Assembly (NCBI GenBank): GCA_947629685.1
Contig: CANREP010000006.1
Coordinates: forward strand, 1 to 64,000
DNA length: 64,000 nt
Source: an uncultured Phascolarctobacterium sp.
GTDB lineage: Bacteria > Bacillota > Negativicutes > Acidaminococcales > Acidaminococcaceae
Direction of reading: 5' to 3'
Positions 11,294 through 49,206 of this stretch are shown one piece after another. A model generated the notes under the pieces. The model did no database searches. It was given only the letters and a program-made list of their open reading frames with translations, and was not told the DNA's origin. The first letter of the stretch is position 1. Each line of letters begins with the position of its first letter. A program made the position numbers and the translations under genes.

Positions 11294-11350
11294 AAAAATT
11301 TACAGTTGAAAGTGTAAATAAGTAAGAAAAAGAAAAATACAATGTTTTTA

Positions 11351-11379
11351 TTGACGGGAAAATATAAAAGCGGTAAAAT
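11351..11379 (+). promoter_or_regulatory. Promoter of the aromatic amino acid operon
   Basis: TTGACG (11351-11356) and TAAAAT (11374-11379) have a 17-base spacer. Transcription would start near 11386, giving a leader of about 310 bases before aroF. Confidence 0.7.
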
Positions 11380-11429
11380 TTGCCTAATCAAGTTTTGATG
11401 CTTAATTATTTATCTTGCAGGTGAGAAAA

Positions 11430-11576
11430 ATGGAATCTATGTTGAAGAAAACTGCAATAGAATACGGCTTTTATTTTGCACCGGTCTTTAGCTTTTACTT
11501 TAGCACCGGATTTTTTGCATGCCAAAATTCATACAGCAGTTCAATCGTAAATAGATGCCTTCCGGGTGGTATTTGA
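11430..11576 (+). CDS. Phe/Tyr-rich leader peptide of the aromatic operon
   Basis: A 48-codon ORF with ATG at 11430, an AGGTGAG site just upstream and TGA at 11574. Its centre reads YGFYFAPVFSFYFSTGFF, in which 10 of 18 residues are Phe or Tyr; all seven Phe codons of the ORF are TTT. It lies between the operon promoter and a terminator hairpin, directly upstream of DAHP synthase. This is the arrangement of ribosome-mediated attenuators such as the enterobacterial pheA leader. The peptide is probably a sensor of charged tRNA-Phe/Tyr rather than a functional protein. I read this from the sequence; I know of no description of it in this group. Expression and starts are untested. Confidence 0.8.
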   Translation: MESMLKKTAIEYGFYFAPVFSFYFSTGFFACQNSYSSSIVNRCLPGGI

Positions 11577-11607
11577 GATATCATCATTAACTTGCGTTTT
11601 CCAGCGG
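11504..11607 (+). promoter_or_regulatory. Candidate protector and antiterminator elements of the aro attenuator
   Basis: CACCGGA (11504-11510, within the leader codons just before TTT TTT) can pair with TCCGGGTGG (11561-11569) with one bulged G. The same 11561-11569 segment can pair, more weakly, with CCAGCGG (11601-11607), which includes the 5' arm of the terminator. This gives a 1:2, 2:3, 3:4 switch. The 2:3 pairing is only about six base pairs with an internal loop, so it needs proper folding. Confidence 0.5.
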
Positions 11608-11635
11608 GCTCTCTTACGAGGGTCCGCTTTTATTA
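11603..11635 (+). terminator. Attenuator terminator upstream of aroF
   Basis: An 11-bp stem (11603-11613 with 11618-11628, two wobble pairs) with loop TTAC is followed by TTTTATTAT. It lies 27 bases after the leader peptide stop and about 65 bases before aroF, so it can end transcripts before the operon. Confidence 0.8.
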
Positions 11636-11698
11636 TGCAGTGCGAGATAAATAATTACTGATAGACTTAAATAATGTATTTATAAAGGAGAGGTAAAA

Positions 11699-12712
11699 AT
11701 GGTCATAGTATTCAAACCGGGCGCACCGGAAGAGGTCAAAACAAAAATAAAGGTCAATCTGGAACAGCAGGGCTTCCAGATTAACGAAATTAACGGTCTT
11801 AACATGACGATTTTCGGTATCATCGGCGATACCAGCACGCTGGATATCAACCTGCTGCGCGTCAACGACTGCGTAGATAAGGTAATGCGCGTGCAGGAAC
11901 CTTTCAAACGCGCCAACCGCATGTTCCATCCTGAAGACAGCGTCATAGATGTGTGCGGCGTGCCTATAGGCGGCCGTAAGATTCAGGTTATTGCCGGCCC
12001 CTGTTCCGTAGAAAGTGCCGAGCAGGTTACCCAGGTAGCCAAATCCGTCAAACTGGGCGGCGCCAGCATGTTGCGCGGCGGCGCTTTCAAACCCCGTACT
12101 TCTCCGTATTCTTTCCAGGGTCTGAAAGAACTGGGCCTTGATTATCTGAAAGCGGCTAAAGAAGAAACCGGCCTGCCCATCGTTACGGAAATTATGTCTG
12201 CTGATAAGATTGAGCGCTTCGTCGAGGATGTCGACCTGATCCAGGTAGGCGCGCGTAATATGCAGAACTACGAACTGCTCAAGGAACTGGGCAAGACCCG
12301 TAAGCCCATCCTGCTGAAACGCGGTTTGTCCGCTACTATCGAAGAATGGATTATGTCCGCTGAATACATCCTGGCCGGCGGCAACGAAAATGTTATCCTG
12401 TGCGAGCGCGGTATCCGCACTTTTGAGACCTATACCCGCAATACTCTTGATTTGAGCGCTATCCCGGCTGTCAAGAAACTGAGCCATCTGCCGGTAGTAG
12501 TCGACCCCAGCCACGCTGCAGGTATGTGGTGGATGGTAGAGCCGCTGGCTAAAGCCGCCGTAGCAGTAGGCGCGGACGGCCTGCTGATCGAAGTGCACAA
12601 CGATCCTGAACACGCTTTGTGTGACGGCGCTCAGAGCCTGAAGCCGGAACGCTTTGCCCGTCTCATGGGCGAACTGAAAGGCATTGCCCAGATTGTAGGA
12701 CGCGATTTATAA
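11699..12712 (+). CDS. aroF: 3-deoxy-7-phosphoheptulonate synthase (DAHP synthase, type I beta)
   Basis: A 337-residue enzyme condensing phosphoenolpyruvate and erythrose-4-phosphate, the first step of the shikimate pathway. Residues 1-70 form the small ferredoxin-like domain found in the Thermotoga-type enzymes, which binds Phe or Tyr for feedback inhibition. The catalytic barrel follows, with IAGPCSVES, LRGGAFKPRTSPYSFQG, PIVTEIMSA, LLKRGLSATIEEW and the VVDPSHAAG metal site. The start is ATG 11699 behind AAAGGAGAGG. It is the first structural gene after the Phe/Tyr leader and attenuator, so the operon is probably controlled both by attenuation and by enzyme feedback. tyrA follows after 62 bases. 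I use aroF as the family symbol. Confidence 0.95.
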   Translation: MVIVFKPGAPEEVKTKIKVNLEQQGFQINEINGLNMTIFGIIGDTSTLDINLLRVNDCVDKVMRVQEPFKRANRMFHPEDSVIDVCGVPIGGRKIQVIAGPCSVESAEQVTQVAKSVKLGGASMLRGGAFKPRTSPYSFQGLKELGLDYLKAAKEETGLPIVTEIMSADKIERFVEDVDLIQVGARNMQNYELLKELGKTRKPILLKRGLSATIEEWIMSAEYILAGGNENVILCERGIRTFETYTRNTLDLSAIPAVKKLSHLPVVVDPSHAAGMWWMVEPLAKAAVAVGADGLLIEVHNDPEHALCDGAQSLKPERFARLMGELKGIAQIVGRDL

Positions 12713-12774: not shown

Positions 12775-13647
12775 ATGACTGAGGGGTTTTGGAATAAGGA
12801 TTGGCAGGAATTATGCTTTGCAGTGGTAGGCATCGGGCTTATCGGCGGGTCGTATGTTAAAGCGTTAAGAAAGCTCAAGGTAAAACGCATCATCGGCATC
12901 GACAGGGATGAGGCGGTGCTGCGTCAGGCAAAGGCGCAGGGACTTCTGGATGCGGCGCTTACAGGCGGCGACAGTACTTTGATTGAAGCTGATGTAATCA
13001 TCTGCGCCCTGTATCCCGATGCGGTGGAAAGCTTTGTGCGGGAAAACGTAGGCTTTTTTAAGCCAGGCGTCCTGCTCACGGATGTGGCAGGCGTCAAGGG
13101 CGCGCTGCCGGAACGGGTACAGGCGCTGTTAGCGCCCGGAATGGAATTTATTTCCGGCCATCCCATGGCGGGCAGGCAGAGCAGCGGCTTTGCCATGTCG
13201 GATGCGGCAATTTTTCAGGGAGCCAATTACATCGTGGTGCCTGATAAGCACAATACGGAAGCAGCAATCAGCTGGCTGGAAAGATTGGCTGCGGCCCTGG
13301 GATGCCGGCATACGGTGCGGGTAACGCCGGCGGAGCATGACAGCATCATCGCCTACACCAGCAATCTGCCCCATGCGGCGGCGGTAGCGCTGATTAACAG
13401 CCAGTCCTATAACGGCAAGACGCCTTATTTCGTGGCCGGCAGTTTCCGCGACGCTACGCGCGTGGCGGATATCAATCCAGATTTATGGACGCTGCTGTTT
13501 TTAAGTAATAAAGAAGCGGTGGCTGATAAGATAGACGAGTATATCCGTCAGCTGGAGCTGTGGCGCGACGCTTTGCGCAGCGGCGACGGACAGCAGCTGC
13601 GGGAAATGATGTGCAGTGCTGCTGCACGCAGAAAGGAACTGTACTGA
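12775..13647 (+). CDS. tyrA: Prephenate dehydrogenase
   Basis: A 290-residue NAD(P)-dependent enzyme that oxidatively decarboxylates prephenate to 4-hydroxyphenylpyruvate on the tyrosine branch. A Rossmann motif VVGIGLIGGSYVKAL opens the protein, followed by the family segments LLTDVAGVKG and FISGHPMAGRQSSGF and the helical C-terminal domain with SNLPHAAAVAL. It ends near residue 290 without an ACT domain, so feedback sensing by a C-terminal ACT domain is absent. The start is ATG 12775 behind GACGAGGTG. The stop codon overlaps the start of aroB (TGATG), so translation is coupled. Confidence 0.93.
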   Translation: MTEGFWNKDWQELCFAVVGIGLIGGSYVKALRKLKVKRIIGIDRDEAVLRQAKAQGLLDAALTGGDSTLIEADVIICALYPDAVESFVRENVGFFKPGVLLTDVAGVKGALPERVQALLAPGMEFISGHPMAGRQSSGFAMSDAAIFQGANYIVVPDKHNTEAAISWLERLAAALGCRHTVRVTPAEHDSIIAYTSNLPHAAAVALINSQSYNGKTPYFVAGSFRDATRVADINPDLWTLLFLSNKEAVADKIDEYIRQLELWRDALRSGDGQQLREMMCSAAARRKELY

Positions 13648-14711
13648 TGAGGAAGATTCATGTTGATTTGGGGCCGAAGGCCTATGATATAGAGATTGAC
13701 GCCGGACTTTTGCCGCAGGTAGGCGGCAGGGTGCGCGCCCTGCTGCCAAAAGCGCGGCAGGCGGTCATCGTTACGGACAGCAACGTAGGGCCGTTATATG
13801 GCGGCATCATGCAGCAGAGCCTGAAAGAGGCAGGACTTAAGGCAGCGCAGATCGTCATCCCGGCCGGGGAGCAGAGCAAGAATATGCAGACGCTGGCCTC
13901 CGTCCTAGAGCAGACGGCGCAGCTGGGACTTACCCGCAGCGACGTGCTCATCGCCTTGGGCGGCGGCGTAACCGGCGATCTGGGCGGTTTTGTAGCTGCC
14001 AGCTATATGCGCGGCATAGCCTTTGTACAGATACCCACTTCGCTGCTGGCGCAGATTGACAGTAGCGTAGGCGGCAAGGTGGCTGTAGATCTGGCGGCGG
14101 GCAAGAATCTGGCGGGAGCCTTCTATCAGCCGAAAGCCGTCTATATCGACCCGCAGCTTTTACAGACGCTGCCGGTACGCTTTCTGCATGACGGGCTGGC
14201 TGAGGCGATAAAATACGGCTGCATCAGCGACGCTAAGCTGTTTGCCGCTTTGGAAGCCTGCGCAGATGATGCGCAGCTTTTAGCATCGGCAGAAGATATT
14301 ATTGCCGACTGCTGCGCCATTAAAGCACGTATCGTGGAGCAGGATGAATTTGACACGGGCCTGCGGATGCTGCTGAATTTTGGCCATACCCTGGGACACG
14401 CCGTCGAGCAGTATTATGGTTACAGCGGTTATACCCACGGTGAAGGCGTGGCTATCGGCATGTATCAGCTGACGCTGCGCACGGAGGCTATGGGACTGAC
14501 GGAGCAGGGCACGGCAGAGCGCCTGGCACAGCTTTTGGCCAAATACAGTCTGCCTGTTGCTGCAGATGCACCGCGGCAGGAGCTGCTGCAGGTCATGGGC
14601 AGAGATAAAAAGAAACAGGGCAGCGCCATTACCCTGGTTATATTGGAAAAAATTGGCAGCGGCAGGCTGCTGAAAATAGACTGGCAGCAGCTGCCGGAGT
14701 ATTTGGGGTAG
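13647..14711 (+). CDS. aroB: 3-dehydroquinate synthase
   Basis: A 354-residue cytoplasmic enzyme that cyclises DAHP to 3-dehydroquinate, needing NAD and a divalent metal. Visible features are the NAD-binding region LGGGVTGDLGGFVAASYMRGI, the PTSLLAQIDSSVGGKVAVDL segment, LNFGHTLGHAVE with metal-binding histidines, and GEGVAIGM. I start it at ATG 13647 (MRKIHVDLGPKAYDIEI), whose first base is the last base of the tyrA stop. A longer in-frame reading into tyrA is not supported by a ribosome site. aroA begins three bases after its stop. Confidence 0.95.
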   Translation: MRKIHVDLGPKAYDIEIDAGLLPQVGGRVRALLPKARQAVIVTDSNVGPLYGGIMQQSLKEAGLKAAQIVIPAGEQSKNMQTLASVLEQTAQLGLTRSDVLIALGGGVTGDLGGFVAASYMRGIAFVQIPTSLLAQIDSSVGGKVAVDLAAGKNLAGAFYQPKAVYIDPQLLQTLPVRFLHDGLAEAIKYGCISDAKLFAALEACADDAQLLASAEDIIADCCAIKARIVEQDEFDTGLRMLLNFGHTLGHAVEQYYGYSGYTHGEGVAIGMYQLTLRTEAMGLTEQGTAERLAQLLAKYSLPVAADAPRQELLQVMGRDKKKQGSAITLVILEKIGSGRLLKIDWQQLPEYLG

Positions 14712-14714
14712 ATT

Positions 14715-16010
14715 ATGGATAAGGTACGGATTGCACCGACGAAATTTAACGGACAGATACATATTCCTTCATCTAAGAGCATGGGGCACAGAGAAATCAT
14801 CTGTGCCGGGCTGGCGCAGGGAACAAGCGTTATCGACAATATCAGCATGTCGAAAGATATTGAAGCTACCTGCCGCTGTCTGCAGGCGTTAGGCGTGCGG
14901 ATAGAAAGCGTTTCCAGCCGTTTTGCCGGACGCACGGCGCTGCGCATTACGGGCAGCGGCAAACTGACGCCGGTGAGCAGCGGCGCTGACTGCGGCGAGT
15001 CCGGCTCCACCTTGCGCTTTATCATCCCGCTGGCGGCGCTGACGGGTACGCCTTTTACGCTGACGGGCCACGGGCGGCTGGTGAGCCGCCCGCTGCAGGC
15101 GTATTACGATATTTTTGACCGGCAAAAGCTGGACTATACTACTGCGGACGGCCAGCTGCCGCTGACCGTTAACGGCACGCTGCAGCCCGGTCATTATCAG
15201 CTGCCGGGAGATGTGAGCAGTCAGTATGTCAGCGGACTGCTGTTTGCTCTGCCGCTGCTGGAAGGAGATTCCGTGCTGGAAATAACTTCGCCGCTGGAAT
15301 CTGCATCTTATGTGAATCTTACTTTGAGCTGCCTGGCCAAGTACGGTATCAAAATAGAAAACGAAGGTCACAGACTGTATAAGATACCGGGCAGGCAGCA
15401 TTACCAGCCTCAAAACAGCAATGTGGAAGGCGACTGGTCGCAGGCAGCTTTCTGGCTGGTGGCCGGAGCTTTAGGCAGGCAGGTGAGCAGCATGGGTCTT
15501 GCTGCCGGCTCTTTGCAGGGCGACAGGGCCGTGCTGGAAATAATGGGCCGGATGGGGGCAAAGCTTACAAAAGAAACTGACGGGGTTACGGCTGCGCAGA
15601 GCGCGGCAGCAGGCTGCCTTATCGATGCGGCCGACTGCCCCGATATTATCCCCGTACTGACGGTGCTGGCTGCAGTAAGCACGGGTACGACCAAGATTAT
15701 CAATGCGGCGCGGCTGCGTATTAAAGAATGCGACCGCCTGGCCGCTATAACCGGCGAATTGAATAAGCTGGGAGCAAAGATTACCGAGCTGCCGGACGGA
15801 CTTATCATCGAAGGCTGCCCGCAGGGACTGCGGGGCGGTTCCCAGGTAGACGCCTGGAACGACCACCGCATAGCCATGAGCCTGGCTGTGGCAGCGGCTG
15901 CCTGCGCTGAGCCTTTTGTCCTGACGGGGGCGGCCAGCGTAGCTAAATCATATCCTGATTTCTGGCAGGATTATGCACGGGCAGGCGGTAAAATGGAGGT
16001 GCTGGCATGA
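14715..16010 (+). CDS. aroA: 3-phosphoshikimate 1-carboxyvinyltransferase (EPSP synthase)
   Basis: A 431-residue two-domain enzyme that transfers enolpyruvate from PEP to shikimate-3-phosphate. Family motifs are visible: PSSKSMGHREIICAGLAQG for the substrate-binding N-terminus, ADCGESGSTLRFIIPLAAL, PGDVSSQYVSGLLFALPLL, and late DRLAAI and WNDHRIAMSLAVAA. The segment ESGSTLRF occupies the place of the usual LGNAGTAxRP, as in glyphosate-tolerant class II-like enzymes, so inhibitor sensitivity is a fair question; this is inference. It starts three bases after aroB, and its stop overlaps the aroC start. Confidence 0.94.
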   Translation: MDKVRIAPTKFNGQIHIPSSKSMGHREIICAGLAQGTSVIDNISMSKDIEATCRCLQALGVRIESVSSRFAGRTALRITGSGKLTPVSSGADCGESGSTLRFIIPLAALTGTPFTLTGHGRLVSRPLQAYYDIFDRQKLDYTTADGQLPLTVNGTLQPGHYQLPGDVSSQYVSGLLFALPLLEGDSVLEITSPLESASYVNLTLSCLAKYGIKIENEGHRLYKIPGRQHYQPQNSNVEGDWSQAAFWLVAGALGRQVSSMGLAAGSLQGDRAVLEIMGRMGAKLTKETDGVTAAQSAAAGCLIDAADCPDIIPVLTVLAAVSTGTTKIINAARLRIKECDRLAAITGELNKLGAKITELPDGLIIEGCPQGLRGGSQVDAWNDHRIAMSLAVAAAACAEPFVLTGAASVAKSYPDFWQDYARAGGKMEVLA

Positions 16011-17101
16011 GCGGTATTTACGGCATGAATATTAAGATGAGTATTTTCGGCGAATCGCACGGCGCGTCCATCGGCCTTGTCATCGACGGACTGCCTCCGG
16101 GACTTGCTCTGGACACGGAGCTTATTGCCCGGGAAATGGCTCGGCGCGCTCCGGGTAAAAACAACCTTTCTACGCCGCGTAAGGAAGCGGACAATTTCCA
16201 AATCCAAAGCGGTTTTTTTAACGGCTATACTACCGGCACGCCGCTGTGCGCCATTATTGCCAACAGCGACCAGCATTCCAAGGACTACAGCATCCTGAAA
16301 GATAAGATGCGTCCGGGACACGCCGATTACGCCGGTTACGTTCATTATCACGGCTACAACGATTACCGGGGCGGCGGGCATTTCTCCGGCCGGCTTACGG
16401 CGCCGCTGGTATTTATGGGCGCGGTAGCCAGGCAGGCACTGGCGCAGCAGGAAATTACTGTGGGCGCGCACATCCTGCAGATTGCCGATATTAAAGAAGA
16501 AAATTTCAATCCCCTGGGGGTTGATGATATAATACTTAAGAAACTGAGCGCTAAAGAATTCTGCGTGCTGGATGATGCGGCAGGTGAAAAAATGCAGCAG
16601 CGTATTTTAGCGGCGAAGGCAGACCTCAACAGCGTAGGCGGCGTGGTGGAAACCATCGTGCAGCATCTGCCCGCAGGTATCGGCGCGCCTTATTTTGATT
16701 CGCTGGAAAGCAGGCTCAGTCACGCGCTGTTTTCTGTGCCGGCAGTCAAAGGCGTGGAATTTGGCGACGGATTTGCCTTGGCAGAGCTGACAGGAGCCGA
16801 GGCCAACGACCAGCTGCATTATACAGAGGGCAAGGTAACAGCCTACAGCAATCATAACGGCGGCATTACCGGCGGTATCAGCAACGGTATGCCCATTATT
16901 TTCCGGGCGGCTATCAAGCCTACGCCGTCCATCGCTAAAAAGCAGCAGACGGTGAGCCTGCTCCAGCAGTGCGATACCGAGCTGGAAATCGCCGGCAGGC
17001 ACGATCCCTGCATCGTCCAGCGGGCAGTGCCGGTTATCGAGGCTGTAACGGCCTGGACAGTATGGGATTTATTACTGGAAGCTAAAAAATGGGAGAGATA
17101 A
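16007..17101 (+). CDS. aroC: Chorismate synthase
   Basis: A 364-residue FMN-dependent enzyme that converts EPSP to chorismate. Signature segments are present: FGESHGASIGLVIDGLPPG near the N-terminus, RPGHADYAGYVHYHGYNDYRGGGHFSGRLTAPLVFMGAVARQ in the middle, and SNHNGGITGGISNGMPIIFRAAIKPTPSI near the C-terminus, with RHDPCIVQRAVPVIEA at the end. The start ATG overlaps the aroA stop (ATGA) and the end overlaps or abuts the pheA start. It sits seventh in pathway order but fifth in the operon. Confidence 0.95.
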   Translation: MSGIYGMNIKMSIFGESHGASIGLVIDGLPPGLALDTELIAREMARRAPGKNNLSTPRKEADNFQIQSGFFNGYTTGTPLCAIIANSDQHSKDYSILKDKMRPGHADYAGYVHYHGYNDYRGGGHFSGRLTAPLVFMGAVARQALAQQEITVGAHILQIADIKEENFNPLGVDDIILKKLSAKEFCVLDDAAGEKMQQRILAAKADLNSVGGVVETIVQHLPAGIGAPYFDSLESRLSHALFSVPAVKGVEFGDGFALAELTGAEANDQLHYTEGKVTAYSNHNGGITGGISNGMPIIFRAAIKPTPSIAKKQQTVSLLQQCDTELEIAGRHDPCIVQRAVPVIEAVTAWTVWDLLLEAKKWER

Positions 17102-18222
17102 CAGTGGGTGAATTGGATTTAGGCGCCATCAGGCAGCAGATAGATAAAGTAGACCGGGATTTAGTACAGGCTTTAGAAGCAAGGCTGCAGCTGGTCATGC
17201 AGGTAGCCGCCTATAAAAAAAGCAAAGGGCTGCCGGTCAAGGATGCCGCGCGCGAAGCGCAGGTCATCAGCAAGGTGCAGGGGATGCTGGTAAATGAACA
17301 GTATGCTCCGGCGGTAGGCGACATCATGCGCTCCATTATCGACGCGGCCTGCGAGCTGGAAGAAGCGGCGCTGGCGGCAGCAGAAAATAAAGTGCTGCAG
17401 ATCGGCTGCTTTGGTGTGCCCGGCTCTTTTACCCATCAGGCGCTGGAAGAATATTTTGCCGGGCGCAGTTACGAGCGGCAGCATTTCAACCATTTTGAGG
17501 AAGTTGTCAGCGCCGTGAGCAGCGGACAGCTGGATTACGGCGTACTGCCCATAGAAAACTCCTCTACCGGCGGTATTACCGAGGTCTACGACCTGCTGCG
17601 CAAATATGACTGCAGCATCGTAGGCGAGCGCTGTGTGCGGATTGAGCAGAATCTGTTAGGCTGCAGCGGCGCCAGCCTGCAGAGTATTAACAAGGTCTAT
17701 TCTCATCCGCAGGGTTTCGCCCAGAGCAAGGAGTTTTTCCGCGATTATCCTGATATGCAGCAGATACCTTATTTCAGCACGTCCAAAAGCGCGGAAAAGG
17801 TGGCTGTCGAACAGGATATTACTTTAGGCGCAGTAGCCGGACGCAAAGCAGCGGAGCTGTACGGGCTCAAGGTGCTGGCGCCGGCCATCAACTACAATTC
17901 CAATAATTTTACCCGCTTCGTCATTATTGCCCGTCAGATGGAAAAAGATGCGGCGGCGGACAAAATCACGCTGATAACGGCGGTCAAACACGAAGCAGGC
18001 TCGCTGTACAAGCTGCTGGGCTATTTTTATCACAGCGGCCTGAATCTGATGAATCTGGAATCGCGGCCTATGGACGGCAAGTCCTGGGAGTATTTCTTCT
18101 ACATCGACGTTACCGGCAGCCTGCAGGATAACGCAGTAAAGGACGCACTGGACGAGGTGCGTAAAAACTGTACCTATCTGAAGATATTGGGCAATTATAA
18201 AGCGGATTGCCGAAAGGAATGA
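17089..18222 (+). CDS. pheA: Bifunctional chorismate mutase / prephenate dehydratase (P-protein)
   Basis: A 377-residue protein of three parts. An AroQ-type chorismate mutase occupies about residues 8-95 (LGAIRQQIDKVDRDLVQALEARL, then KVQGMLVN). A prephenate dehydratase domain follows, about 103-285, with FGVPGSFTHQAL, YGVLPIENSSTGGITEVYDLL and NFTRFVIIA. A C-terminal ACT domain (about 290-375) carries the NLESRPMDGKSWEYFFYID segment that binds Phe for feedback inhibition. It channels chorismate to phenylpyruvate. Two starts are possible: ATG 17089, overlapping aroC, or GTG 17104 behind GGGAG. Both keep all domains. Confidence 0.93.
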   Translation: MGEITVGELDLGAIRQQIDKVDRDLVQALEARLQLVMQVAAYKKSKGLPVKDAAREAQVISKVQGMLVNEQYAPAVGDIMRSIIDAACELEEAALAAAENKVLQIGCFGVPGSFTHQALEEYFAGRSYERQHFNHFEEVVSAVSSGQLDYGVLPIENSSTGGITEVYDLLRKYDCSIVGERCVRIEQNLLGCSGASLQSINKVYSHPQGFAQSKEFFRDYPDMQQIPYFSTSKSAEKVAVEQDITLGAVAGRKAAELYGLKVLAPAINYNSNNFTRFVIIARQMEKDAAADKITLITAVKHEAGSLYKLLGYFYHSGLNLMNLESRPMDGKSWEYFFYIDVTGSLQDNAVKDALDEVRKNCTYLKILGNYKADCRKE

Positions 18223-18227
18223 ACAGT

Positions 18228-19043
18228 ATGCAGTACGGGTTATTAGGCGGCAAGCTGGGACACAGCCTGTCGCCCAGGATACATGAATTATTTTTCCGTT
18301 ATACGGGTAAAGAAGGCAGCTATACTTTGCTGGAAACGCCGGAGGCAGAGCTGCCGGAGCGTCTGCGTCAGCTGCGCAGCGAGGGGTATACCGGCTGCAA
18401 TGTAACCATCCCCCACAAGGTGGCGGTTATGCCGCTTTTGGACGGTGTGGCAGACGAGGCTGCCGCTATCGGCGCAGTTAATACCATCCATTTTACAGAG
18501 CGGGGAGCCTTTGGTTACAATACGGATTATTTCGGTTTCGGCAGGATGCTGGCGTATAACGGTATCGACGTTGCCGGAAAAACCGCAGTCGTACTGGGCA
18601 GCGGCGGCGCCGCCCGGGCCGTGGTCAGCTATTTGCAGGCGCAGCAGGCAGCAGAGCTGTATCTGGTAACGCGCTCGCCCCGGCAGGTTGATAAATATTT
18701 TTATCAGATAGCACCGCAGCTGCGTGTAATCAGCTATGAAGAACTGGCGCGGCTCAGCGGCAGGCTGTTGGTAAACTGTACGCCGGTGGGCATGTATCCT
18801 GCCGTGGAGGCAAGTCCTGTTAGCAGTGAGGTTTCTGCCGCATTTGAAGCTTCTGTGGATCTTATCTACAATCCGGCTAAGACGCTGTTTCTGCAGCAGG
18901 CGCAAGGTGCAGGCAAACAGGCTGTCAACGGACTTTTTATGCTGGTGGCGCAGGCAGTGGCGGCGCAGGAAATCTGGCAGCAGGAAAGCTATGGCAGCGA
19001 GCTGATAGAAAAAATTATGACCGAGCTGGAGAATTGCTTATGA
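18228..19043 (+). CDS. aroE: Shikimate dehydrogenase
   Basis: A 271-residue NADP-dependent enzyme reducing 3-dehydroshikimate to shikimate. Seen motifs are GGKLGHSLSPRIHELFF for substrate binding, GCNVTIPHKVAVMPLLD with the catalytic lysine, GAVNTIHF, NTDYFGFGRML with the catalytic aspartate, and the Rossmann motif VVLGSGGAARAVV. I prefer ATG 18228 because AAGGA lies 10 bases before it. An in-frame ATG at 18219 overlaps the pheA stop but sits too close to that site. Its stop overlaps aroK (ATGA). Confidence 0.93.
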   Translation: MQYGLLGGKLGHSLSPRIHELFFRYTGKEGSYTLLETPEAELPERLRQLRSEGYTGCNVTIPHKVAVMPLLDGVADEAAAIGAVNTIHFTERGAFGYNTDYFGFGRMLAYNGIDVAGKTAVVLGSGGAARAVVSYLQAQQAAELYLVTRSPRQVDKYFYQIAPQLRVISYEELARLSGRLLVNCTPVGMYPAVEASPVSSEVSAAFEASVDLIYNPAKTLFLQQAQGAGKQAVNGLFMLVAQAVAAQEIWQQESYGSELIEKIMTELENCL

Positions 19044-19546
19044 AGAAGAATCTTGTACTGATCGGGATGCCGGGCTGCGGCAAATCGACTTTTGGCCAGG
19101 TGCTGGCTAAAGAGCTGAAACGGGAATTTTACGACGCTGACCAGGTATTGGAAGAGCGGGAGCAAATGTCAATCAAAGACTTTTTTAAAATCGGCGAGGA
19201 CGCGTTCCGGAAGGCGGAAACCAGGACGATTGCCTATCTGGCGGATAAGGAGGGCGCAGTCATCGCTACCGGAGGCGGTGTAGTTACACGGCCGGAGAAT
19301 ATCGAACTGCTGCGTAAAAAAGGCGTGCTGCTGTATATCGACCGTCGGCCGGAAAACATCATCCGCTGCATTCACGACGATCACCGCCCGCTTCTGGCGG
19401 ACGATAAGCTGAAAATCTTCCGGTTGTATGAACAGCGGCGCGACCTGTACAAAAAGTACGCCGACTATATTATCGGCAATAACGGCAAGCCTGACGAGAC
19501 CATTGCCAAGATAGTAAATTATGCTAGGAGGGAAGGTCTGATATGA
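19040..19546 (+). CDS. aroK: Shikimate kinase
   Basis: A 168-residue P-loop kinase phosphorylating shikimate at the 3-hydroxyl. The Walker A motif is GMPGCGKST, followed by the shikimate-binding FYDADQVLEER and the GEDAFRKAETRTIAYL region with the conserved arginine, then IATGGGVVTRPENIELL, and the lid arginine in DDHRPLL. The true start is ATG 19040, which overlaps the aroE stop. An upstream TTG adds only two residues. The stop overlaps the aroQ start. Confidence 0.94.
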   Translation: MKKNLVLIGMPGCGKSTFGQVLAKELKREFYDADQVLEEREQMSIKDFFKIGEDAFRKAETRTIAYLADKEGAVIATGGGVVTRPENIELLRKKGVLLYIDRRPENIIRCIHDDHRPLLADDKLKIFRLYEQRRDLYKKYADYIIGNNGKPDETIAKIVNYARREGLI

Positions 19547-19980
19547 AGAAGATACTGGTACTGAACGGCCCCAACATCAATATGCTGGGCATCAGGGAGA
19601 AAAATATTTATGGACATAACGACTACGCCAGCCTGTGTACGCTCATCAAGACGGCTGCTGCCAGACTGGGAGTGCAGGTAGAGCTGCTGCAGAGCAATTA
19701 CGAAGGCGACATCGTGACTGCCATCCAGCAGGCGTATGGCGTGTATGACGGCATCATCATCAATCCGGCTGCTTTTACCCATTACAGCGTGGCAATTTTA
19801 GACGCGCTGAAAGCGGTCAATATCCCCACTATCGAGGTACATATCAGCAACATCCATACCAGAGAGGAATTCCGGCATAAATCTGTAACAGTCGCAGGCT
19901 GCACCGGGCAGATCTGCGGACTTGGTTTTACCGGCTATATCCTGGCGCTGGAAGCGCTGACCGTCTACAGCGAAGAATAA
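19543..19980 (+). CDS. aroQ: 3-dehydroquinate dehydratase, type II
   Basis: A 145-residue type II dehydroquinase that dehydrates 3-dehydroquinate to 3-dehydroshikimate; the family forms dodecamers. Characteristic segments are LVLNGPNINMLGIREKNIYG with the active-site tyrosine, LLQSNYEGDIVTAIQQA, IIINPAAFTHYSVAILDAL, and the catalytic histidine in PTIEVHISNIHTREEFRHKSV. It is the last gene of the aromatic operon, overlapping aroK by four bases. With it, all seven enzymes from DAHP to chorismate are present in the same transcript. No type I enzyme is seen in the window. Confidence 0.95.
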   Translation: MKKILVLNGPNINMLGIREKNIYGHNDYASLCTLIKTAAARLGVQVELLQSNYEGDIVTAIQQAYGVYDGIIINPAAFTHYSVAILDALKAVNIPTIEVHISNIHTREEFRHKSVTVAGCTGQICGLGFTGYILALEALTVYSEE

Positions 19981-33144: not shown

Positions 33145-33425
33145 GATAAAAAAGCCCCTACCTGCGCTTGCAGATAGGGGCGAAGATCGCGGTACCACCC
33201 TAAAATTTCTCTTCATTTTTCCGAATAGCTGATTCGGCGGCTTAACGCTGCTTCTGCGTCTGCTTCTAAAGGGCTGCGCCCAGGTCAAAGCAGCTGCTCG
33301 CGGCTGAGTTTCTTTACCTGTCCTGTAACGGCTTGCACCTGACGCCGTCTCTCTGTAAGCAGGGGCAGATAAATCTGTCCGTTCATTGCATTTTCATTGG
33401 TATATTGTTTTGTGAACACGTTTGT
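33145..33425 (-). promoter_or_regulatory. Leucine T-box leader of leuCDB
   Basis: Read on the minus strand, the leader holds the invariant T-box AGGGTGGTACCGCG (33188-33201) followed by a terminator stem around GCCCCTA / TAGGGGC and a T run (33145-33181). Upstream stem I contains AGAGAG and the apical GGTGCAAGCC. The specifier loop reads GAAACTCA, giving CTC (33306-33308), a leucine codon followed by A. Uncharged tRNA-Leu(GAG) should stabilise the antiterminator and turn the operon on. Confidence 0.93.
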
Positions 33426-48924: not shown

Positions 48925-48969
48925 TGCTTTACAGTAATTAAATCAAATAAAATATAAGTTATATTTAAT

Positions 48970-49206
48970 TTTAGGTGTAGCGTTACTTAATAGTAAACAG
49001 GTGCAAATCCTGTACGGTCCCGCCGCTGTAATGCCGGAGCGCGCTTTCAGGTATGATTATGAAAGTGAGCGCGTAAAGGCAGAGTCAGACAGACTGCCTG
49101 AAAAAGCTTTGAATTTCTGCGAGTGACGGAAAAAGCCGGTAGATGAGTATAAGTGTTCCAATTTTGCGCTTTTCCGATTAACTGCGGAAAGGCGCTTTTT
49201 GTTTTT
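48970..49206 (+). promoter_or_regulatory. Cobalamin (B12) riboswitch with transcription terminator
   Basis: The conserved core is visible as GGTGCAAATCCTGTACGG then TCCCGCCGCTGTAA (B12-box region, about 48999-49031), followed by a variable arm and AGAGTCAGACAGACTGCCT (49081-49099). A terminator follows: an 11-bp stem (49166-49176 with 49185-49195, one wobble) with an 8-base loop and a T-rich run to 49206. This fits transcription termination when adenosylcobalamin is bound. The first well-supported gene downstream is at 49405. Confidence 0.9.

Follow-up and report, generated by a model that had tools for sequence, protein, structure and literature searches.

How the whole shikimate pathway is controlled from the short stretch between promoter and first gene is the question raised by the aromatic operon of this uncultured Phascolarctobacterium sp. 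A preliminary description, made from the letters of the window (the whole 64,000-nucleotide stretch of DNA analysed here), had proposed a Phe/Tyr leader peptide attenuator over an aromatic operon in a Negativicute. Comparative evidence supports the kind of device, its target and its place, while the pairing arms first suggested are restricted to one genus and had to be replaced. The locus very probably carries a ribosome-mediated attenuator of the trp/phe type, which would sense charged Phe and Tyr tRNAs (probably also charged Trp tRNA in many relatives) and set the expression of the whole shikimate pathway.

Leader ORF and the nine-gene operon

A promoter, a 48-codon ORF with a ribosome site and an aromatic centre, a terminator beyond its stop and a nine-gene aromatic operon downstream had all been proposed from the sequence, and all of them were recovered.

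11351-11379, plus strand: sigma-70-like promoter TTGACG-N17-TAAAAT (promoter-like, predicted from sequence)
11419-11425, plus strand: leader ribosome binding site AGGTGAG (sequence comparison)
11430-11576, plus strand: leader peptide ORF, ATG start, 48 codons, MESMLKKTAIEYGFYFAPVFSFYFSTGFFACQNSYSSSIVNRCLPGGI (kept in each of the 51 family genomes that could be compared)
11463-11516, plus strand: control codons, from Y12 through F29; 10 of the 18 encode Phe or Tyr (sequence)
11603-11636, plus strand: intrinsic terminator, 3:4 hairpin (11603-11628) and U-rich tail (predicted from sequence and fold)
11699-12712, plus strand: aroF, DAHP synthase
12775-13647, plus strand: tyrA, prephenate dehydrogenase family
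13647-14711, plus strand: aroB, 3-dehydroquinate synthase
14715-16010, plus strand: aroA, EPSP synthase
16007-17101, plus strand: aroC, chorismate synthase
17089-18222, plus strand: pheA, chorismate mutase/prephenate dehydratase
18222-19043, plus strand: aroE, shikimate dehydrogenase (its start is uncertain and may be 18207 or later)
19040-19546, plus strand: aroK, shikimate kinase
19543-19980, plus strand: aroQ, type II 3-dehydroquinate dehydratase

The genes from aroF to aroQ make up the full shikimate pathway together with the Phe and Tyr branches. They share one strand, with a gap of 62 nt after aroF and gaps of -13 to +3 nt thereafter, so the nine genes are likely to be cotranscribed. The closest named aroF belongs to an uncultured Phascolarctobacterium sp. 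and is 97% identical. Upstream of the operon, transcription probably starts near 11386; TTGACN and TANAAT hexamers were found again at the equivalent place in relatives, nearly all of which also have an AGGTG or AAGG-like ribosome site. The terminator hairpin contains 11 pairs (-18.6 kcal/mol) and begins 26 nt past the leader stop, and all family genomes examined have a terminator 3' of the leader.

The leader ORF carries 11 Phe/Tyr codons in total. In its core segment, YGFYFAPVFSFYFSTGFF, 10 of 18 residues are F or Y, a higher density than in any other of the 548 window ORFs with lengths of 20-80 codons. By itself this density is weak evidence, because one other ORF in the window scores 9 and three score 8 of 18. 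AT-rich ORFs with many F and Y residues thus arise by chance here, as would be expected if the leader were constitutive, with a leaky terminator and an F/Y ORF that is a by-product of U-rich sequence. Judged by comparison between genomes, it is conservation rather than density that decides against chance. The preliminary description had called for a check on whether related genomes keep an F/Y-rich ORF upstream of aroF. Among the 59 family genomes, 51 have an intact aroF and sufficient upstream sequence, and each of these 51 upstream regions contains a Phe/Tyr-rich ORF followed by a terminator. The leader of a 52nd genome (G028) is cut by a contig end and matches in its remaining part. Three genomes of one genus (G040-G042) have no close aroF and no leader match, with an aroF-like gene fragment present in G041. 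Tandem aroF duplicates follow a single leader at some loci in family genomes (L003, L004, L005, L009, L013 and L026).

Within genera, pN/pS is 0.37 in the leader core (108 non-independent pairs), and the leader peptide itself is therefore under selection. Judging from this selection at the protein level, the ORF is probably translated. Purifying selection of this kind, conservation that is independent in dozens of genera, the linked covariation of the RNA arms and the specificity for one pathway, both described below, all speak against a constitutive leader, which we find hardly credible.

At many core columns of the peptide F and Y replace one another, and its conservation exceeds plain aromatic content, with the consensus SxGYF. 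This excess, together with the purifying selection, could point to a nascent-chain arrest peptide such as TnaC or the Erm leaders, in which a stall in the exit tunnel would sense a free aromatic amino acid or an intermediate and the same RNA arms would transmit the signal. However, the free exchange of F and Y at most core columns is what codon counting predicts, and many relatives have another C-terminal part or none at all, which is not what one expects of a specific arrest sequence. Where VNRC/VKRD is conserved at the C-terminus, region 2 of the RNA accounts for it (see below), because its nucleotides persist even where a stop lies ahead of them. An arrest peptide is accordingly an unlikely explanation, and we continue with the attenuator that reads aromatic codons.

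Alternative pairings of the leader RNA

Three RNA regions are involved in the alternative pairings of the leader, in addition to the terminator hairpin.

11431-11456, plus strand: region 1, protector strand, the first codons of the ORF; pairs with region 2 (swap tests)
11535-11560, plus strand: region 2, antiterminator strand, CAGTTCAATCGTAAATAGATGCC, just past the aromatic codons; pairs with region 1 or, via 11545-11560, with region 3
11605-11619, plus strand: region 3, 5' arm of the terminator with its loop, CGGGCTCTCTTACGA; forms the antiterminator with region 2

For the source genome, the 1:2 duplex (11431-11456 with 11535-11560) amounts to -16.5 kcal/mol and the 2:3 duplex (11545-11560 with 11605-11619) to -12.6 kcal/mol. 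A different antiterminator, CACCGGA paired with TCCGGGTGG, had been put forward in the preliminary description. It can be formed on paper (-8.6 kcal/mol), but TCCGGGTGG occurs only in the source genome and its sister genome. As a conserved switch this pairing was rejected, as it is confined to one genus and the conserved arms are regions 1, 2 and 3.

In most family genomes a CGTAA motif begins about 29 nt past the last core Phe codon, and the spacing is kept whether the motif lies inside the ORF, spans the stop or falls beyond it. Its placement is independent of frame and stop; therefore it is the nucleotides, not the peptide, that are conserved at region 2. In other families CGTAA is replaced by ATGAG or AGAAYCT, and the terminator shifts along to CTCAT or AGGTTCT.

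Covarying stems, the other comparison proposed at the outset, were found in swap tests for both pairings; these tests and the shuffles below take groups as units with the tree not modelled, so that all p-values are guides. For 1:2, native arms reach -17.5 kcal/mol against -10.6 kcal/mol for swapped arms between genera (p = 5e-5), and -16.9 against -11.2 between families (p = 2e-5). For 2:3, the values over 14 families are -11.0 kcal/mol native and -8.5 kcal/mol swapped (p = 4e-5). Between genera within the family the 2:3 effect is small and suggestive only (p = 0.067), because both arms are nearly invariant there. Four control pairings of adjacent segments showed no covariation in the swap test (p 0.43-0.96). 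In the comparison with dinucleotide-shuffled sequences, 1:2 and 2:3 each score a negative z in 28 of 29 groups, the 2:3 value being just -0.4 in the source genus alone. A genome-by-genome scan of a wide stretch of the leader region, asking which segment pairs best with the terminator arm, was not significant, and the fixed-distance and between-family tests replaced this search. The covariation of both pairings suggests that region 2 alternates between region 1 and region 3.

Such alternative pairings form without translation, and the naked RNA folds well (z -4.8), as a ligand- or protein-controlled RNA switch would require if the ORF were a passenger and the arms answered some other factor. 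Selection is nevertheless strongest on the aromatic codons, the gene context is aromatic, no Rfam family matches, and the constant spacing of about 29 nt between the last Phe codon and region 2 suits a ribosome ruler; we hold a switch of this type to be very improbable. Attenuation by a translating ribosome is thus kept as the preferred reading. In the full-length fold the terminator is dominant throughout, and therefore the switch must be kinetic.

Two other RNA structures were observed at the locus. Complementary stretches of 17 bp at 11402-11419 and 11641-11657 flank the leader, one ahead of the ribosome site and the other past the terminator, and the sister genome shows compensatory changes in them; their helix could occlude the leader ribosome site in transcripts that pass the terminator. 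In the swap test this helix scored p = 0.00035. It was rejected as a general part, as the shuffle z of -4.3 holds in the source genus only and the mean over genera is -0.35 (p = 0.33). A nine-pair hairpin, GGUGGUAUU-UGA-GAUAUCAUC (11565-11585), holds the leader stop in its loop, and several relatives have a hairpin of some kind in the interval from region 2 to the terminator.

Proposed mechanism and ribosome-masked folding

With ample aromatic amino acids, the ribosome would read past the aromatic codons as far as the stop and cover or pass region 2, upon which the terminator (3:4) would form and transcription would end before aroF. A point against this scheme is that in the source genome the stop lies about 14 nt past region 2, so that a ribosome at the stop covers only part of region 2. 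Under scarcity, the ribosome would stall in the aromatic block with region 1 covered or displaced, and the free region 2 would pair with the loop and 5' arm of the terminator (2:3), letting RNA polymerase continue. If the leader were untranslated, 1:2 would form and the terminator would prevail. The sequences show the parts and their conservation, selection on the peptide, the covariation of 1:2 and 2:3 and the link to aromatic genes; we infer the stalling, the switching in the cell and the identity of the sensed tRNAs. Both Phe and Tyr codons occur in essentially all leaders, and Trp codons in 34 of 51 family leaders and 33 of 35 others. The device may pool the charging of several aromatic tRNAs, which would fit because the pathway feeds all three amino acids.

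In order to model the effect of the ribosome, each leader was truncated before the terminator 3' arm and folded with 31 nt masked by the ribosome. In the family, 2:3 has a mean probability of 0.38 for naked RNA and 0.65 with the ribosome at initiation; the mean is 0.59 on the first aromatic codon and 0.43 on both the middle and the last, and it falls to 0.23 on the stop. The means in other families are 0.27 naked, 0.53 at initiation, 0.39, 0.29 and 0.28 at the first, middle and last aromatic codons, and 0.16 at the stop. For the source genome, the probability is 0.32 naked, 0.77 at the first aromatic codon and 0.28 at the stop. The first aromatic codon exceeds the stop in 45 of 51 family loci and 26 of 35 other loci, with the opposite direction in 9 of the 35. 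In this model the direction matches attenuation on average, though not in each genome. The rise at middle and late codons is small (0.43 against 0.38 in the family), perhaps because the model allows 1:2 to close around the ribosome, a closure that real geometry would probably hinder; alternatively, the early aromatic codons may count most.

Distribution of the leader family

Leaders in other genomes were searched with a profile (HMM) that was built from the leader peptides alone and is blind to position. At E 0.01 it matches 90 of the 380 genomes of the class and, with distant members added, 108 of 380 (42 of 102 genera) at E 0.001. Aromatic-pathway genes follow most of the retrieved matches: 35 of 39 non-family matches precede aroF, aroA, tyrA or aroK, and 18 of a further 20 also precede aromatic-pathway genes, giving 53 of 59 retrieved non-family or second-copy matches in total; one other stands ahead of an ACT-domain protein. 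The further 20 include 11 genomes outside the class, matched in a scan of the phylum (398 genomes), in 10 of which the leader stands before aroF or aroB. Over all retrieved leaders the target genes are aroF, aroA, aroB, tyrA, aroK, aroE and pheA. Matches at L116, L122, L123 and L125 (among the 39) and at L154 (among the 20) were set aside as chance matches.

The same layout occurs in named organisms, such as Phascolarctobacterium sp. ET69, Megasphaera cerevisiae and Lucifera butyrica, as well as Clostridium beijerinckii, C. magnum, C. acidisoli and others; the scan behind these names, made through aroF with a loose ORF rule, also picked up some false loci, and its total is not used here. Several large families of the class (e.g. 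f20) have almost no leader-profile match among the 380 genomes, and either the spread is patchy or the profile is too insensitive in those families.

Some genomes contain two or three leader copies, so the element moves or duplicates among aromatic operons. Like leaders were seen before aroA-aroC, tyrA, aroK, aroE-aroK or pheA-aroK (L092, L097, L112, L094, L104, L105, L124, L155 and L156). At L150, the second leader copy of its genome precedes an apparent two-ACT-domain regulator and not an aromatic enzyme.

With moderate confidence, we regard these leaders as an old pan-aromatic attenuator family (Phe and Tyr, often Trp) of Negativicutes and several lineages of Clostridia, which would be mobile among aromatic genes, pool the charging of two or three tRNAs and form a main RNA control of the shikimate pathway, beside T-boxes in the same cell. 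If this is true, a class-wide peptide attenuator, present in other classes as well, would be the missing shikimate control in many gut and industrial anaerobes and a natural example of several amino acids being sensed by a single leader; short genes by the dozen would have been overlooked by annotation.

Comparison with known systems

The enterobacterial Phe leaders (pheA, pheST; Phe_leader in Rfam) share with the aro leader a short ORF of aromatic codons, the protector/antiterminator/terminator logic and aromatic targets. Of the likeness to them suggested in the preliminary description, the logic alone stands. The pheL leader is known for Phe codons only, while the aro leader mixes Phe and Tyr and often Trp codons. 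Furthermore, the aro leader governs the whole shikimate pathway, uses the start of the ORF as region 1, occurs in Negativicutes and Clostridium, and has no covariance-model match: the Rfam scan gave none at the gathering threshold, and none at E up to 10 for 11300-11700.

Negativicutes and Clostridium are usually thought to regulate amino-acid genes via other RNA devices. Histidine leader-peptide attenuators are known in Firmicutes (PMC2965389, PMC9413887). Like the aro leader, they represent the classical leader-peptide type in Gram-positive lineages once thought to be T-box territory, but they use His codons, precede his genes, belong to other taxa and are unrelated in sequence.

The closest published item is uORFC-13-1 (PMC8632094), compared here by description only. 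In that paper, it is a uORF before aroF with at least one Phe codon and an adjoining terminator, for which attenuation was proposed, and it is reported from Acholeplasma and unnamed environmental sequences only (24 representatives). The place before aroF, the uORF and the terminator agree with the aro leader; its text gives no alternative antiterminator, whereas the aro leader has the 2:3 pairing. On this description uORFC-13-1 may be a branch of the aro leader family. Three MAGs titled Acholeplasmataceae (L184, L185 and L188) have an aroF 77-80% identical to that of the window, and their GTDB-based kinship is with the same family; these labels may bear on the Acholeplasma assignment of uORFC-13-1. 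No description of the aro leader family, its mixed codons or its spread was found in Rfam or in the open literature searched. The type of mechanism is known; the widespread family that mixes aromatic codons is apparently undescribed, with priority uncertain.

T-box leaders resemble the aro leader in that tRNA charging leads to antitermination of transcription. The T-box binds the tRNA directly, without a ribosome. No match to the T-box model (RF00230) was found upstream of aroF. In the window, a T-box stands immediately ahead of a leuC-like gene (3-isopropylmalate dehydratase large subunit; 33173-33395, minus strand), and a cobalamin riboswitch (Rfam RF00174, 52 bits) lies at 48956-49115 on the plus strand. 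The source genome has 13 T-box candidates, 9 of them above the Rfam cut-off, and one T-box precedes pheS (L137, contig 24). A T-box and a peptide attenuator would therefore both serve Phe metabolism in one genome, and the pheS T-box and the aroF attenuator would offer two sensors of tRNA charging that can be compared within one cell.
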